Notes under the pieces: model-generated | The model's input: only the letters and a program-made list of their open reading frames with translations | Databases searched by the model: none | Told to the model about the DNA's origin: nothing | Position numbers and translations under genes: made by a program | Assembly (NCBI GenBank): GCA_017625815.1 | Contig: JAGAKD010000106.1 | Span: 17,689 to 81,688 of the forward strand | DNA: 64,000 bases | Origin: Lachnospiraceae bacterium | GTDB taxonomy: Bacteria; Bacillota; Clostridia; Lachnospirales; Lachnospiraceae | Direction of reading: 5' to 3' | Part shown: positions 473 through 18,255 of the stretch, piece by piece | How positions within the stretch are numbered: the stretch's first letter is position 1 | Layout: every line of letters begins with the position of its first letter

Positions 473-3400
473 TTAGTTAGTATACATAAAAGTGGTTGTA
501 CTAAAACTATTATTTATCTGCGGCTCAAAAGTATCTCTATAATTCCTAAATATCGGTTTGTCAAACAAGCGTATTTTCTTTTCAGTCTCTTCTACTTTCT
601 TTACTTGGTGATTATACAATTGCTCTTTGTATATCATTATCTGTAACATCGCCATGACGCGGTCAGCATTAGCTTTGTCATTGTACTTGATTAATTCTTC
701 AAGTAAAGGTTCAGATAGAATTGTATCTACACGAGTTTTACCGTTACCAATATCTTCTTCTAAGTATTCTTTAATTTTATCAATACCCCAAGCCTTAATT
801 TCTTTAGTCATGTGACAACCTTTGCCTCTATTTACTTTAGAAGAATTAGTAATGTCACGTATTACATCAGGTTGATCAGCTAATAAATAACTACAGTGTT
901 TATTATTAAAATATGTGAATATACCTGTATTTTGGTTTTCAACCATAGCTTTTGCATTATAATACTTCAAGAGTTTACGAACATTCTCGTAAAAGTCTTC
1001 AGCAGTCTTCGGTCTACCTGTATACTCGGCTACTATAATATCCTGATTTGATTCAAAGTTTTGGAAACGTTTGTATATGATGCAACTACCTAAAGAGTTT
1101 GTACCAGATTGATCTTGATCGTATGGGTCAATACCCGCAATATACAAACCATACGGAGCTTCTTTGAGAGGGTGTTCCCATATTACTACAGCACCAGTGG
1201 GATCTGCTTTAACTGGTAAAGGATATTCAGTGATGTCATTAGGACTCTTTTGAATATTCCACACTAATTCTCCTTTCACTTCAGTAAGAAAACCCACTTG
1301 TTTAGCATTAGCTAACTTTTTATTAGTTCTAATGCGAGATAATTGCATCTGTAAAGCTTTCTTAGGAAATATATTACCAGTTAATTCAGTAAATGCCTCA
1401 GTAGGAGTTTCTGCGTGTTCTGCAACATATCTATCTATCTGTTGAGTACTCTTAGTGGATTTTAATTCTTCTTCTCTAAGATCTAAGATAAACTGTTTAG
1501 CTTTCTCATGTAATGTATTACCGTCTTCATCCATGTAAAGACGCTTACCGCTTTCATCACGAACGTCTAGATTAGTATGTTGAGGTACAAAAAATCCACA
1601 AGGCCTATCTTGCATTCCCTCATCCCAAATGTTTTCAAATTCAATACAATTGTATTTTTTAGGATCATAAAATGCTTCACGTAAACCAGCAACATTTTCA
1701 CCTTGATCACCGCCAGTATTGTGTGTAACTATCCCATTTACAATATAATTGTGTTGTTCTTTGGCAGTTAAATTGTATATGTCTTGTTCACCGATTTCTT
1801 TAATGTCTACAATTTTATCAGCTACTATACCACTTACATATTTGTGATGTTTTGCGGTTTTTGCTGCAGTAAATAATTGAATTAATTCTAATGCTGCAAT
1901 CTTTTTCCCTACTGTTAACGGTATTCTTTCTGCAAATCTGTTAAGACTTATCACATCAGATATAACTAATCTCCAACAACCATTTACATCTTTTATTTTC
2001 CTATTCCTGTTAGATGGTTTGATGTAATTGATTGTTCCATGTATACCAAAATGTAACAAAGCTTCTTGAACTTCTAACAATATTTCTTTTTGACACTGAG
2101 TTAAAGTTATACAAGCTTGTGTGTTATTTATTCCAACATAACCATCAGTATCATACAAACCTCCAAGCAGTTCTTCTAAAGATTCTGCATCATATTCGTG
2201 AAAATTTACAGGTAAACGTTTTTTGTCTTTAGTTTGACCATATATACCTAGTTCCCTTAGATTTTTACAAATACCTTTAATTCTAATTTCCTGATATAAC
2301 TGATTAGTACTTTTGGTAATGTATTCTTTTTCAATTGTGGTGTCAAAGTTATTGTGACAATAATTTAATATTTCTTCTTCGCAGTTGAATAATCTAGGGG
2401 TCTTATCAAGACCGTAATTACCATCACCGATTAACCAACCAACTAATCTTGGTTCCCACATTTTCTTTTTACCAAAAATAGGAATTTCATCAATTAATCC
2501 AACCTGATCCCCTACTTTACAATTACCAGCATGGTGCCATAACCAAGCTTTCATGTGTTCATTTTCGTCACGTTTTCCAGGTACCCGTCTAGTTCTACCT
2601 GGAGTAGACCATAACAACGGATGATCAGTACTACACCTAATGGTTCTACCAGAACGCAAAGATATTTCTACACACGGTTTCTTTGCTGGTGGATTTATAT
2701 TTTCAATCGTCTGCTGACATACTTGATAAGTATTCCATCCCAATATACCGTCTTTGTGTTGAATATCTTCGATATTTATACAATTTCCTTCATTGGTCCA
2801 TACTCTGGAGCCTTTGCAAACACAACCAAAAAGAATCATTGTACCAAATGCTATACCGTCTTGTTCTACAGAAGGTCTGGCAATTTCCCAAGCAGCTTTT
2901 AATTCTTTAAAAGAACCACCCTCTTCCCAAACAATCAACTTTGCAGCTTTACCACGGACAGAGTTAGGATTATCTTTTACAGACACTCCCATAATTTCCG
3001 ATTTGTATCCAACTTCAATTTTATTACCAAACTCGTCTGTAACAAGCATTGAAGCTCTCTTACGCATCGCAGTATTTGCCACTTGTCTCTTTTTACCCCA
3101 AGCAGTATTTGCATCTATAAAATCCATATAGTCCCAGGCTTTTGTTAAATTACCGTCTTCTGTCAAAAACTGTTTATTAGATGCGTAAACGTAAGATTTG
3201 GAATTGGGAATTAAAAAGAAATTACGACACAGCATGCTGGATGTTTTGTATGAGTATCCTTTTCTTCGACTCTTTGTTAGACATAAATGTTTACCTTTAT
3301 TTTCGGCTTCTTGTACAGCCTGAAAGAAAAAGTAATCATAGTCGTAAAAGTCAGGGAATGCAGCAATACGCTCTTTCTTTGTTTCCCCAGTAATAGGATC

Positions 3401-3640
3401 TGTAGTATATACTAATCTCTGAATAGGACAATAGTTTAAATAGAAATAGTTATACCCAGTAATGTAGTCACCATCATCTGCAGTATAACCATCTATACAA
3501 TACTTCATTTCCTGTTCCCAGAAATTGTAGTATTCGCTTGTACCCTTAGGGTATGAACAATAAGTGCCCGTCTCCTGAAAGCGGATGGCGGGCTGTCTAA
3601 ACTTATTGGAATTTTTTATTTTCTTAGTAAAGTCAATCAT
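473..3640 (-). CDS. terL: Terminase large subunit, interrupted by an intein
   Basis: ATP-driven DNA-packaging motor and headful nuclease. The 1,055-aa precursor has an N-terminal ATPase: a Walker A-like segment at residues 121-134 (LTKSRRKGYSYKTS) and a Walker B-like segment at 235-240 (LIVWEE). A C-terminal RNase H-type nuclease region includes GIDPYDQDQSGT and the later ENQNTG. Residues 273-641 are an intein. Removing it rejoins MILFG to TGGDQGEN and leaves a 686-aa enzyme, a normal size for crAss-like TerL. The start codon shares its A with the stop of the small gene upstream, and the portal begins 2 nt after the stop, so the genes are probably translationally coupled. Confidence 0.93.
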   Translation of the reverse strand: MIDFTKKIKNSNKFRQPAIRFQETGTYCSYPKGTSEYYNFWEQEMKYCIDGYTADDGDYITGYNYFYLNYCPIQRLVYTTDPITGETKKERIAAFPDFYDYDYFFFQAVQEAENKGKHLCLTKSRRKGYSYKTSSMLCRNFFLIPNSKSYVYASNKQFLTEDGNLTKAWDYMDFIDANTAWGKKRQVANTAMRKRASMLVTDEFGNKIEVGYKSEIMGVSVKDNPNSVRGKAAKLIVWEEGGSFKELKAAWEIARPSVEQDGIAFGTMILFGCVCKGSRVWTNEGNCINIEDIQHKDGILGWNTYQVCQQTIENINPPAKKPCVEISLRSGRTIRCSTDHPLLWSTPGRTRRVPGKRDENEHMKAWLWHHAGNCKVGDQVGLIDEIPIFGKKKMWEPRLVGWLIGDGNYGLDKTPRLFNCEEEILNYCHNNFDTTIEKEYITKSTNQLYQEIRIKGICKNLRELGIYGQTKDKKRLPVNFHEYDAESLEELLGGLYDTDGYVGINNTQACITLTQCQKEILLEVQEALLHFGIHGTINYIKPSNRNRKIKDVNGCWRLVISDVISLNRFAERIPLTVGKKIAALELIQLFTAAKTAKHHKYVSGIVADKIVDIKEIGEQDIYNLTAKEQHNYIVNGIVTHNTGGDQGENVAGLREAFYDPKKYNCIEFENIWDEGMQDRPCGFFVPQHTNLDVRDESGKRLYMDEDGNTLHEKAKQFILDLREEELKSTKSTQQIDRYVAEHAETPTEAFTELTGNIFPKKALQMQLSRIRTNKKLANAKQVGFLTEVKGELVWNIQKSPNDITEYPLPVKADPTGAVVIWEHPLKEAPYGLYIAGIDPYDQDQSGTNSLGSCIIYKRFQNFESNQDIIVAEYTGRPKTAEDFYENVRKLLKYYNAKAMVENQNTGIFTYFNNKHCSYLLADQPDVIRDITNSSKVNRGKGCHMTKEIKAWGIDKIKEYLEEDIGNGKTRVDTILSEPLLEELIKYNDKANADRVMAMLQIMIYKEQLYNHQVKKVEETEKKIRLFDKPIFRNYRDTFEPQINNSFSTTTFMYTN
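1718..2824 (-). mobile_element. LAGLIDADG intein in TerL
   Basis: 369-residue in-frame insertion with complete splicing motifs. Block A begins at the first Cys (CVCKGSRVWTNEG), block B is STDHPLLW, and the C-terminal F/G blocks end in NYIVNGIVTHN. Thr is the first residue of the C-extein. Two LAGLIDADG motifs (LVGWLIGDG and LEELLGGLYDTDG) mark an inserted homing endonuclease. All residues needed for protein splicing appear present (Cys1, block-B Thr/His, His-Asn end, Thr+1), so I infer it is active. The site is a strongly conserved TerL motif between the ATPase and nuclease parts, typical for inteins. Confidence 0.93.
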
Positions 3641-3819
3641 TATTTCTTCTTGAAGAACTTTTTAATTCTCTTCCAAATACTTAATTTCTCTGGTTCAGGA
3701 ATCTGCATTGTACCTTCACACGGGGTATTCATCATCGTGTTATATAACGCATAAACATCAGTAAAGTCTAAAGTAATAGCACCAGCTTTAGTGTTATTCT
3801 TCTTGTTATTCTTAGCCAT
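3640..3819 (-). CDS. Small basic-tailed protein upstream of terL
   Basis: 59-aa ORF with both ends rich in Lys and Asn. The N-terminus reads MAKNNKKNNTKAGAITLDFT and the C-terminus WKRIKKFFKKK. Its TAA overlaps the terL ATG by one base, which argues for a real coupled gene. No recognised domain. Position immediately before terL would suit a packaging accessory protein, but nothing in the sequence shows that. Confidence 0.6.
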   Translation of the reverse strand: MAKNNKKNNTKAGAITLDFTDVYALYNTMMNTPCEGTMQIPEPEKLSIWKRIKKFFKKK

Positions 3820-3891
3820 ATTCGTATCTATATTTTTCGTAGCAACGCTACAGTTCTGTTAATGTTATATTATATGTGGATGTAGTTACAA

Positions 3892-4422
3892 CTACTTAAC
3901 TAATTCAAATGGATTTAATTCACCACCACCACGAACTTTAGAATTAGTTAATTCTTCAGCTCTTACTGAAGCTTCTAATAAATCTAATGATTTGATAGTA
4001 TTACCTAAAGAGCTCATACCTGATAATATATCTTTTACTTTCTTTTCATCTAGTAAGTCATCTAGTGAATCAGTGTAGTACTTTGATATACTTTCTAATT
4101 TCTTTCTAGCATTCCTAAGTAATTGAAGAGTTAAAGTGTTATTAAATTCGATATAAGCTTGTTCTGCTTCTAATACGTCTTTAGGTAACTTTATATCAGC
4201 TTTACCAAACAATTCTTTCTTAAGTCTTGGCTCAATGTCTTCAGCATCCATACTCTTGACATAAGGGCTGTCGTATTTATTCTTTAGTACGATATATGAA
4301 ATATATTTGGTAGCTAATTCTTTATCTTGTTTATCGGCATCCCACACCTTTTTAAAGGCGGGGATGCCTAAGGCATCATTGTGTATTAGAACTTTACCTG
4401 CAACAATATCAAATAGTTTCAT
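3892..4422 (-). CDS. Conserved crAss-type protein upstream of terL, possibly structural or packaging
   Basis: 176-aa mostly helical acidic/basic protein starting MKLFDIVAGKVLIHNDALGI. I recall similar proteins beside terL in crAss-like genomes, where they are usually labelled structural or hypothetical. By location it could serve as the small terminase partner, but no helix-turn-helix is obvious. It ends about 70 nt before the next small gene; that gap holds a 5-bp hairpin (GTAGT TACA ACTAC at 3880-3893). Confidence 0.6.
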   Translation of the reverse strand: MKLFDIVAGKVLIHNDALGIPAFKKVWDADKQDKELATKYISYIVLKNKYDSPYVKSMDAEDIEPRLKKELFGKADIKLPKDVLEAEQAYIEFNNTLTLQLLRNARKKLESISKYYTDSLDDLLDEKKVKDILSGMSSLGNTIKSLDLLEASVRAEELTNSKVRGGGELNPFELVK

Positions 4423-15274: not shown

Positions 15275-15661
15275 TATCTCGATTTTTCATAATTATAGAT
15301 CTTAAAGTGTTAAACATCAGACTACATTCATCTGTGAAGACCAATGTAGTCGCACTCCCTTTAAATAGTCAATATGGTGAGAATCCATATCAAACATGTG
15401 GGGCTTATATCTCATATTACTGCAGGATATGAGTATTAGTGCAGACGTAAAAATCATGTCTTCAATAAGCTGTTGTTATTACGAAACAATAGCTGCTTAG
15501 AAGTAAACTTGAAATAAGTAAATATCGTAAAATATTAATTACCTCGTATAATTAGATTTAGCGAGATTGCTACAACAATCAACATTTTAGTTCATCAGTT
15601 CCTGTCAATAGTTGTAGCTATTGACCGTCCATAGTTATTAACTTTTTAAAATTTATCAAAA
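15275..15661 (+). ncRNA. Structured non-coding region (387 nt)
   Basis: No ORF, and strong local pairing. GACTACATT pairs with AATGTAGTC near 15,330-15,352, ATATGG with CCATAT near 15,371-15,390, and CTCATAT with ATATGAG near 15,412-15,432. AGCTGTTG pairs with CAATAGCT near 15,470-15,496, and GTCAATAG with CTATTGAC near 15,605-15,626. This many hairpins in AT-rich DNA suggests a stable RNA or a long structured leader. No known family recognised. Confidence 0.45.
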
Positions 15662-17374: not shown

Positions 17375-17870
17375 CCAATAACAGAGCTGAGAGTGTTCGA
17401 AAGACCTCTCAGTCTCTATTTTAAAGTATTTACACTTTAATTTAGAGATTAATGCCACGTTACAAACAACCGAAGCGCAGTAGGTAATTTTATCTGAATT
17501 AACAGATAGCTCAAGAACCTTTGAGTCAGAGTGGAAGAACTTTGAGCCACTGATCATGTGCCTAAGATCATTGTTATTATAAAGCTTACCGACAATTGGG
17601 TAAGTGCTGAATCGCTAGAGCCTTGGAGCCAAGACTATAATAACAGCTCTAGAAATGGAGTTATAATAACAATGATATCAAATCACAATAACTATGAGTC
17701 TTAGAACCAGCAGCAATGCAATAGTTATACGATCTATCAAAGGCTATTTTACATAAATAATATTGAGCTATATGCCGTATAAAATCTAACGAAAAGAACC
17801 AGAGCGATCCATTAATAATGATATGATCCAGCAGTTAAGTAATTAGAACAAATTTTATACAATATTATTT
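17375..17870 (+). ncRNA. Large structured RNA upstream of the tmRNA
   Basis: About 500 bases, no ORF. CTGAGAG/CTCTCAG and TCTCTA/TAGAGA form hairpins near 17,383-17,446. GCTTACC/GGTAAGTGC lies near 17,583-17,611. CTAGAGC/GCTCTAG (about 17,613 and 17,648) encloses CTTGG/CCAAG. TTGTTATTATAA (about 17,571) is fully complementary to TTATAATAACAA (about 17,661), and a second TATAATAACA (about 17,636) competes for it. It may be an ornate phage RNA or a long precursor segment of the tmRNA. Confidence 0.5.
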
Positions 17871-17878
17871 ATATCTTA

Positions 17879-18140
17879 GGATATACGTTGGGAAACTAAC
17901 GTATATCCACAAATATTCAATACATAAGAACTGTGTATTGTCTTATTAGGTTTATTGGAAGTATGTAAGACGAGAGTTCGAATCTCTCCATCTCCACAAG
18001 AATAATAGAAAAGGGGATGAAAGGCATTAGATTACATATGAAAGATAAAATAGGTTCACCTATAAATTTAAATGGCAATACATTTGTCACAGATTATACT
18101 GCGATAGCAGCGTAATCTAACGTGCTAACTACGGAAGTGC
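17879..18140 (+). ncRNA. ssrA: Circularly permuted (two-piece) tmRNA
   Basis: tmRNA rescues stalled ribosomes and tags the protein for degradation. The acceptor half comes first: H-type pseudoknot 17,919-17,945 (AATACA/TGTATT with TAAGA/TCTTA), P2 strands TTTAT and TATGTAA, T-arm GAGAG-TTCGAAT-CTCTC, then CATCTCC (17,989-17,995) and A. After a 16-nt spacer the coding half starts with GGGGATG (18,013-18,019). It pairs with CATCTCC over all 7 bp, including the G3-U70 alanine wobble. TTACATA and ATAAA (18,032-18,049) pair with the P2 strands. Tag frame GGC to TAA (18,074-18,115) reads GNTFVTDYTAIAA, its 3' part in a P5-like hairpin. CCA is not encoded. The outer ends of both pieces are uncertain. 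Confidence 0.8.
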
Positions 18141-18145
18141 AGGGA

Positions 18146-18216
18146 TACCATTTAGCTCAATCGGTTAGAGCCATGGATTTTACCATGAGATGGGGGTTCG
18201 ACTCCCCCTTTGGTAA
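18146..18216 (+). tRNA. tRNA-like gene, Lys(UUU)-like, with a short anticodon loop
   Basis: Good D-arm GCTC-AATCGGTTA-GAGC and T-arm GGGGG-TTCGACT-CCCCC; acceptor TACCA/TGGTA pairs over five positions with T-T mismatches at 6 and 7. The anticodon stem CATGG/CCATG leaves only six loop bases (ATTTTA), so the anticodon is read as UUU with one base missing. No CCA encoded. It follows the tmRNA directly and is probably co-transcribed. Either degenerate, or altered so that anticodon nucleases do not cut it. Confidence 0.55.
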
Positions 18217-18255
18217 CAAGTGTTAATTAACATTATTAATTTAATAATCATCAAG

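Follow-up and report, generated by a model that had tools for sequence, protein, structure and literature searches.

The stretch of DNA that we analyzed (64,000 nucleotides, hereafter the window) carries at positions 17,919–18,145 a circularly permuted tmRNA gene of a crAss-like phage, confirmed by sequence analysis and of the Suoliviridae type. The 3′ acceptor/T-arm half of the gene lies upstream of its 5′ half, and the acceptor stem and two P2 helices join them; the transcript would likely be cut into two RNAs that pair again as a working tmRNA. tmRNA releases ribosomes that are stuck and adds a tag to the proteins they have left incomplete, and trans-translation is a major ribosome rescue system of bacteria.

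A sequence-only reading of this DNA had proposed a permuted tmRNA and named its acceptor halves, P2 strands and tag frame, all of which we found where it had placed them (Table 1). ARAGORN called a permuted tmRNA at 17,907–18,206 and predicted the tag that had been read by eye, GNTFVTDYTAIAA. The Rfam check that had been suggested was run, and model RF04321 (tmRNA_permuted) scored 51 bits against a cut-off of 47, while the beta_tmRNA model aligned the acceptor domain with a score below its own cut-off. No open reading frame (ORF) of at least 60 amino acids was found in window positions 17,560–18,179. Since the 3′ end given by ARAGORN overlaps a tRNA-like gene, a position near 18,145 is the more likely end of the coding piece.

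Table 1 Parts of the permuted tmRNA gene and its flanks in the window.
Feature	Positions	Strand	Basis and remarks
Strong hairpin GGATATACGTT/AACGTATATCC	17,879–17,908	+	Directly upstream of the acceptor piece; read in the sequence
Acceptor-piece hairpin ATAAGA-ACTGTNNNNTG-TCTTAT	17,924–17,946	+	Motif recurs in relatives
Distal P2, 3′ strand TTTAT	17,951–17,955	+	Partner 18,045–18,049; partner-swap test
P2, 3′ strand TATGTAA	17,962–17,968	+	Partner 18,032–18,038; partner-permutation test
T arm GAGAG-TTCGAAT-CTCTC	17,972–17,988	+	T-stem covariation; loop holds a group I intron in five relatives
3′ acceptor strand CATCTCC (17,989–17,995), discriminator A and one C	17,989–17,997	+	Acceptor covariation; CCA not encoded
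Intervening sequence, 16 nt counted from behind the discriminator	17,997–18,012	+	Removal expected
5′ acceptor strand GGGGATG of the coding piece	18,013–18,019	+	Acceptor covariation; RF04321 alignment
D-loop-like segment AAAGGCATTAGA	18,020–18,031	+	TTAGA in the window, TTTGA in 19 relatives
P2, 5′ strand TTACATA	18,032–18,038	+	Partner-permutation test
Distal P2, 5′ strand ATAAA	18,045–18,049	+	Partner-swap test
Tag frame GNTFVTDYTAIAA, Gly resume codon, stop TAA	18,074–18,115	+	ARAGORN; related tag in 20 of 20 genomes
Remainder of the coding piece (..CGTGCTAACTACGGAAGTG..)	18,116–18,145	+	Kept in cr50_1 and cr10_1; end and function putative
tRNA-like gene directly downstream of the coding piece	18,146–18,217	+	ARAGORN; Rfam, 44.4 bits

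Contig C55, on which the window lies, belongs to an assembly of 2.8 Mb. Its ECF sigma factor shares 74% identity with the homologues of the crAss-like phages cr55_1 and cr1_1, and DNA matches to cr1_1, cr55_1 and cr50_1, which their GenBank records place in the Suoliviridae, Boorivirinae, amount to 10–12% of the 24.9 kb used as query. A Bacteroidota host as the source of the assembly was considered and dropped: no match to a SusC/RagA protein was found in the assembly holding the phage contig, and its one-piece tmRNA (G000, C131:19966–21165, 175 bits, with SmpB adjoining) has the tag ANENYAYAA. Given the lack of a SusC/RagA match, the assembly is probably not that of a Bacteroidota host and the phage contig probably came into it by a binning mistake. 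This one-piece ssrA has its own two ends and lies on another contig, so the idea that an intact ssrA might use one of the halves seen in the window did not hold.

To follow the gene among related phages, 16 named Suoliviridae records were gathered via sigma factor or DNA similarity; they represent 16 of the 21 named crAss records of the sigma-factor list after removal of duplicates (cr60_1, cr113_1, cr114_1, cr124_1 and cr272_1 were left out). A permuted tmRNA gene is present in all 16, and it is thus not special to this phage. In the 13 records where both were observed, the gene lies upstream of the sigma factor gene, within ~3 kb, and the coordinates in cr118_1, cr53_1 and cr6_1 agree with this order. 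SmpB gave no match in any of the 16 phage records searched.

A bare GenBank feature "transfer-messenger RNA, SsrA" stands at the same place in seven of the 16 records (cr50_1, cr10_1, cr52_1, cr125_1, cr115_1, cr7_1 and cr273_1). The feature is absent from cr55_1, cr1_1 and VCotu56, whose inspected stretches span the gene, and the stretches of the other six span it incompletely. The view that a permuted form in a crAss-like phage would be new has therefore to be narrowed, as these annotations exist and permuted tmRNAs of marine phages are published; what stands is that the open-access matches listed include no publication describing the permuted form in such gut phages.

The RF04321 scores of these genes are marginal. 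Over 21 records, 14 matched at E ≤ 0.01 and eight exceeded the cut-off, one of these eight being bacterial; the seven others are from the 20 crAss-like records, and cr118_1 reached only 21 bits. Six genes that the model missed were found by reading the sequence alone (cr55_1, cr1_1, cr4_1, cr56_1, cr6_1 and cr109_1). A fragment also missed by the model (L006, from G002), which has just the acceptor hairpin near its end, was excluded from the count, and three loci for which ARAGORN predicted related tags (L101, L117 and L183) were excluded from the pair counts. Outside the Suoliviridae, three Steigviridae and three Intestiviridae records gave no match over cut-off to RF04321 or RF00023 (0 of 6 each), and only cr128_1 was upheld by eye. 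A single match to the 5′ acceptor/D-loop pattern was seen in crAss001 (3872–3892, minus strand). Weak matches to RF04321 or RF00023 at L039, L040, L184, L185 and L186 were judged tRNA-like or due to chance and were not counted.

Pairing was then examined in 20 genomes, namely the window, the 16 named records and the IMG/VR contigs G001, G003 and G004. Pairs were counted on extracted strands, since a MAFFT alignment of 13 whole precursors shifted the cr273_1 acceptor by one base. In the acceptor stem, all 140 cells are paired and the G3-U70 pair, which also occurs in the acceptor of bacterial permuted tmRNAs, is kept in 20 of 20 genomes. Pairs 1–3 are invariant (G-C, G-C, G-U), and the other four of the seven show compensatory two-sided changes (pair 4, G-C or C-G; pair 5, A-U, U-A, C-G or G-C; pair 6, U-A or A-U; pair 7, G-C, A-U or U-A). 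When partners were swapped among the six distinct rows, full pairing was reached in 10 of 10,000 trials. The T-stem, with its register picked for full pairing with a 7- or an 8-nt loop, is paired in 100 of 100 cells over nine distinct rows, and none of 10,000 swaps did as well.

For the P2 helix, the mean duplex energy is −6.87 kcal/mol with own partners against −3.88 kcal/mol with swapped ones, a value reached in none of 2000 permutations. Row by row, the own partner comes out on top for only seven of the 20 genomes, and in cr10_1, cr6_1 and cr115_1 at least eight foreign partners outscore it. For distal P2, the summed longest helix is 108 with own partners and 96.4 with swapped ones (20 of 10,000 swaps reach it), the longest helix lying in a different register in four of the 20 rows (G001, cr55_1, cr115_1 and cr273_1). 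The search for compensatory changes that had been advised thus shows covariation of the acceptor, the T-stem and both P2 helices. Because of this covariation, a chance resemblance combined with a prediction artefact, for which an Rfam score barely over threshold could speak, is already refuted and keeps a negligible probability; the synteny in the 20 genomes also goes against it.

The acceptor is followed by A-C in 20 of 20 genomes, and none encodes CCA. The T-loop of the window (TTCGAAT) is of the TTCRA type. Exceptions among the 20 genomes are cr56_1 and cr109_1, with an 8-nt loop TATCGTAT, cr53_1, with TTTGATC, and cr6_1, whose loop across the intron has 8 nt; judging from their sequences, the 8-nt T-loops of these three phages (cr56_1, cr109_1 and cr6_1) may reflect an altered function.

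The pieces outside the helices are conserved to differing extents. The ATAAGA-ACTGTNNNNTG-TCTTAT motif is identical in cr50_1, cr10_1, G001 and cr55_1, recurs where fragment L006 ends, and has one-base variants in G003 and cr1_1; the pattern was not found at the tmRNA of the remaining relatives. Of the pseudoknot that had been proposed for the acceptor piece, this hairpin is the only element seen. Hairpins of differing sequence occupy the position of the 17,879–17,908 hairpin in several relatives, as judged by eye, and this hairpin could possibly be a 5′ boundary or a processing site. On the other side of the gene, a T-arm hairpin follows the stop codon of the tag within 200 nt in 18 of the 20 genomes, all but cr52_1 and cr273_1, in which it was missed; the same holds for 5 of 319 stretches of the window that served as controls. 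In the window, the tRNA-like gene found there has an anticodon loop of 6 nt (CATGG-ATTTTA-CCATG), its acceptor is imperfect, and ARAGORN cannot name its identity. It would likely act as an RNase P entry setting the 3′ end of the coding piece, the cut freeing that piece. Odd tRNAs or tRNA-like remnants also trail the tmRNA in relatives.

A tag frame with a resume codon and a stop is present in 20 of 20 genomes. The tag has 12–15 residues in 19 of them and reads GNTSYVMDYTRLAA in cr109_1. It starts with G-N (D-N or D-K in 2 of 20), has a V.DYT or similar core, and ends in small C-termini (-IAA, -IGA, -AVA, -CVA, -KVA, -LAA, -LVA, -NVA or -EAA). The resume codon encodes Gly in 17 of the 19 genomes counted. 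Within the DY of the core, the Tyr is found in every one of the 20 genomes and the Asp in all but one, and both Asp codons and both Tyr codons are used. This conservation bears on the possibility that the gene is a decoy, whose tRNA-like domain would titrate SmpB or alanine charging and so block host trans-translation. A precedent is the tag-less tmRNA gene of mycobacteriophage DS6A, which has a tRNA-like domain, such a molecule inhibiting tmRNA according to the portions of PMC11915505 and PMC4131195 that we consulted, and the odd T-loops of cr56_1 and cr109_1 would suit it; but a decoy needs no tag frame, and the frame kept in every genome makes this explanation improbable.

The course that a working two-piece tmRNA would follow can be predicted from what tRNAs and tmRNAs are known to do. 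The 16-nt intervening sequence would be excised by host RNase P together with a 3′ tRNA nuclease, and the host would add CCA to the acceptor end. Alanyl-tRNA synthetase of the host would charge the molecule via G3-U70, host SmpB would bring it to stalled ribosomes, and the ribosomes would append GNTFVTDYTAIAA to the unfinished protein. As the phage records gave no SmpB match, the SmpB of the host would be needed. In five relatives, a group I intron of the T-loop would have to be spliced out first. The benefit to the phage, as far as sequence can tell, would likely be that ribosome recycling continues during infection with a tag of the phage's choosing; hypothetically, as the earlier reading had it, ribosome rescue or tagging could be redirected during infection.

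The five interrupted genes are those of cr55_1, cr1_1, cr118_1, cr4_1 and cr6_1 (5 of 20 genomes), where 705–870 nt split the T-loop. With the Rfam model RF00028 (Intron_gpI, cut-off 50 bits), the inserts of cr55_1, cr1_1, cr4_1 and cr6_1 scored 58.7, 63.0, 74.9 and 96.7 bits, respectively, and that of cr118_1 scored 76.0 bits, a match that was not reported when longer stretches were scanned. Read by eye, the 5′ splice sites show a U-G pair and the introns end in G. By the rules of PMC11915505, also applied by eye, the introns sit at T-loop subsites 7 (cr55_1 and cr1_1), 8 (cr118_1 and cr4_1) and, less surely, 3 (cr6_1), the ends chosen for cr6_1 being less sure because they leave an 8-nt T-loop. 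Every T-loop insert carries an antisense ORF of 165–200 amino acids. Pfam HNH was matched in the ORFs of cr55_1, cr4_1 and cr118_1, the ORF of cr6_1 gave no Pfam match, and the 169-aa ORF of cr1_1 has the same letters as that of cr55_1.

In their T-loop subsites, these introns resemble those of the T-loop-intron tmRNAs in the accessible part of PMC11915505. In that part, however, the intron form stands apart from the permuted one, whereas the interrupted crAss-like genes are also permuted, and none of the introns discovered there exceeds 700 bp, unlike the crAss-like inserts. Table 3 of that paper, drawn from a database of 97,179 sequences, distinguishes a standard, a permuted and an intron form besides two that lack the tag and, in what we saw of it, no permuted-plus-intron form; for this reason, the combination of a permuted tmRNA with a T-loop group I intron appears to be new. 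It was likewise not reported among the open-access matches listed.

Insertions are also found between the two halves, where the intervening sequence ranges from 16 to 601 nt among the 20 genomes. That of cr56_1 contains a 191-aa ORF annotated as an endonuclease (L050, 1770–2345, minus strand), with no Pfam match, and a shortened remnant of the same DNA is found in cr109_1 (L053). One could propose that a decayed tmRNA survives only as a target into which group I introns and endonuclease genes home, as the T-loop introns of five genomes, the endonuclease-annotated gene of cr56_1 and its remnant in cr109_1 would allow. We hold this to be highly improbable, because the T-loop is free of an intron in 15 of the 20 genomes, compensatory changes maintain the helices and the tag frame is conserved. 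Intervening sequences also have conserved pieces of their own (L002, about 3689–3902; L003, about 3085–3183; L038; L032): by eye, a T-arm-like hairpin AGAGG-TTCGACT-CCTCT was seen in those of cr50_1 and cr10_1, and CTAGGATTTTT..ACCGTGCGCCAAGTT..AGAACGGT is common to those of G003, cr55_1 and cr52_1.

The origin of the permutation was approached through one-piece relatives. Steigviridae phage cr128_1 has a one-piece tmRNA, read by eye, with the acceptor GGGGCAT/ATGCTCC and the tag frame GNTYRAAA. Its T-loop holds a group I intron (86.1 bits) that shares 80% identity over 227 nt with the cr6_1 intron and carries an antisense gene annotated as an endonuclease, whose protein matched only zf-FCS in Pfam. 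Locus L069 likewise has a one-piece tmRNA (tag GNTYRIAA), and the adjoining ORF resembles the neighbor in cr128_1, a kinship judged by eye. As ARAGORN divides the genes into parts, the crAss-type permuted rows share with the one-piece L079 and L130 a TTTGA D-loop (19 of 20; TTAGA in the window), no encoded CCA and mostly a GGC resume codon. In contrast, six permuted rows (L081, L087, L099, L106, L120 and L121), labeled alpha/cyano-type from motifs alone, have a TCGA D-loop, an encoded CCA and a GCA resume codon.

The tags of L079 (GENNYALAA) and L130 (GETNYALAA) differ from the crAss-type permuted tags and are of a kind that we take to be a Bacteroidota mark. Both these Bacteroidota-type genes and the crAss-like cr128_1 and L069 resemble the crAss-type permuted genes in D-loop, missing CCA, GGC resume codon and T arm, but all four are in one piece and in normal order, cr128_1 having the T-loop intron in addition.

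The T-arm pattern scan of viral contigs gave, among the matches listed, 123 loci (L064 and up), in which ARAGORN predicted 41 tmRNAs. From these, 26 were chosen before a tree was built; near-copies and odd tags were left out (L109, L123, L124, L127, L129, L138, L141, L146, L159, L163, L173, L177, L178, L180 and L181), and the tree is also without the five intron-bearing genomes, cr109_1 and cr128_1. In the resulting tree of 41 rows and 72 columns, where no row was identified as beta-type, the six alpha/cyano-type rows lie on one side of a 99/95 branch. The AU test, on 72 columns and with taxonomy lacking for most rows, rejects a tree in which the 30 permuted rows make up a single clade (p = 2e-5). 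Nor are the other 24 of these rows united among themselves: they require at least nine label changes, five of them forced by starred branches, and were grouped together in 0% of 200 bootstrap trees. On these 72 columns, two crAss-type rows (L117 and cr273_1) fall on the alpha/cyano side.

These results can be weighed against an alternative in which the phage captured an already permuted tmRNA from one of the alpha-, beta- and cyanobacterial lineages or from the phages of such bacteria. Such a capture would agree with the matches to RF04321, a model built from those lineages, with the two rows on the alpha/cyano side and the lack of a single crAss-type group, and with the alpha-type permuted tmRNA published in marine phages (PMC9004378, in the part available). 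We nevertheless consider it unlikely, as the crAss-type rows match the one-piece L079 and L130, not the six alpha/cyano-type rows, in the lack of CCA, in the D-loop (19 of 20) and mostly in the resume codon, and the AU test, for its 72 columns, stands against one permuted clade. The Bacteroidota-type body of the gene indicates that the crAss-type permutation is likely separate from the alpha-, beta- and cyanobacterial events. Together with a one-piece relative in another crAss family, it suggests a separate permutation, and we are less sure that this took place inside a phage. Permuted tmRNA of Bacteroidota-type sequence was not reported among the open-access matches listed.

We put forward, with evenly balanced confidence, a fourth origin of two-piece tmRNA, in which a Bacteroidota-type one-piece crAss tmRNA would have been permuted in the Suoliviridae and some members would then have gained a T-loop group I intron. 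If true, this would make a doubly broken tmRNA, needing both splicing and cutting before its two pieces pair. The GGC resume codons of other permuted tmRNAs (the L070, L078, L090, L152 and L160 groups) suggest that the permutation event may be wider than the crAss-like phages, or that there was more than one. In other viral contigs (L070, L086, L112, L078, L127, L129, L181, L090, L152 and L160), permuted tmRNAs have tags that begin with Gly, for instance GKTINVNFAPAQFRAAA and GKTINFSNAPLRAVA. L070 carries a promoter-like box, TAACTTTGC, presumably of the Bacteroidota type.

Compared to the permuted tmRNA genes of alphaproteobacteria, betaproteobacteria and cyanobacteria (RF04321, RF01849–RF01851), the crAss-type genes have the same order of halves, acceptor pairing, P2, downstream tag frame and intervening sequence. 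They differ by the lack of an encoded CCA, the TTTGA D-loop, the Gly resume codon, the V.DYT-like tag core and, in 5 of 20, the T-loop group I intron. The bacterial genes were described by Keiler 2000 and Sharkady 2004, as cited in the consulted part of PMC11915505. In phages, the accessible text of PMC9004378 counts 402 of 18,146 genomes with a tmRNA and 133 unique structures, 53 of them two-piece; 50 of these are marine or aquatic and the other three are not named. The phage Melnitz and other marine phages of that study likewise bear a permuted tmRNA, but the Melnitz ssrA is placed with alphaproteobacteria in the pages seen, unlike the crAss type. The three remaining structures could be crAss-like, crAss-like phages not being named in the same pages. 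Among the ten phages with ssrA in the available part of PMC4131195 there is no crAss-like phage, and the corresponding part of PMC4383926 does not mention the word "phages". Sequences of the crAss type may be present, unremarked, among the 79 phage entries of PMC11915505, as far as its visible portion goes.

Among the viruses of the human gut, crAss-like phages are very abundant (PMC6235969, in the section consulted). If a whole phage family has a tmRNA with a tag of its own, these phages would supply their own rescue RNA to host SmpB in infection, and, the tag being conserved, its protein targets can be sought directly in gut proteomes. Within one phage order, the one-piece, permuted and permuted-plus-intron forms offer a natural series for studying how an RNA gene becomes split.

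Other elements were noticed around the gene. A weak match to Cow-rumen-4 (RF02948) at 17,879–17,941 was dropped: in the 21 genomes and records, four matches reached E 0.1 and none the cut-off, and only that of the window lies at a tmRNA. Just upstream of the tmRNA, a RAGATH-22 RNA (17,387–17,556, 125 bits) and a Hatchet ribozyme (15,368–15,459, 93.7 bits) were found, and RAGATH-7-assoc, -9, -20 or -22 and Hatchet occur near the tmRNA in several relatives too. Finally, a terminase-like ORF of 1055 amino acids at 473–3640 on the minus strand of the window seems, by eye, to contain an intein-like insert.
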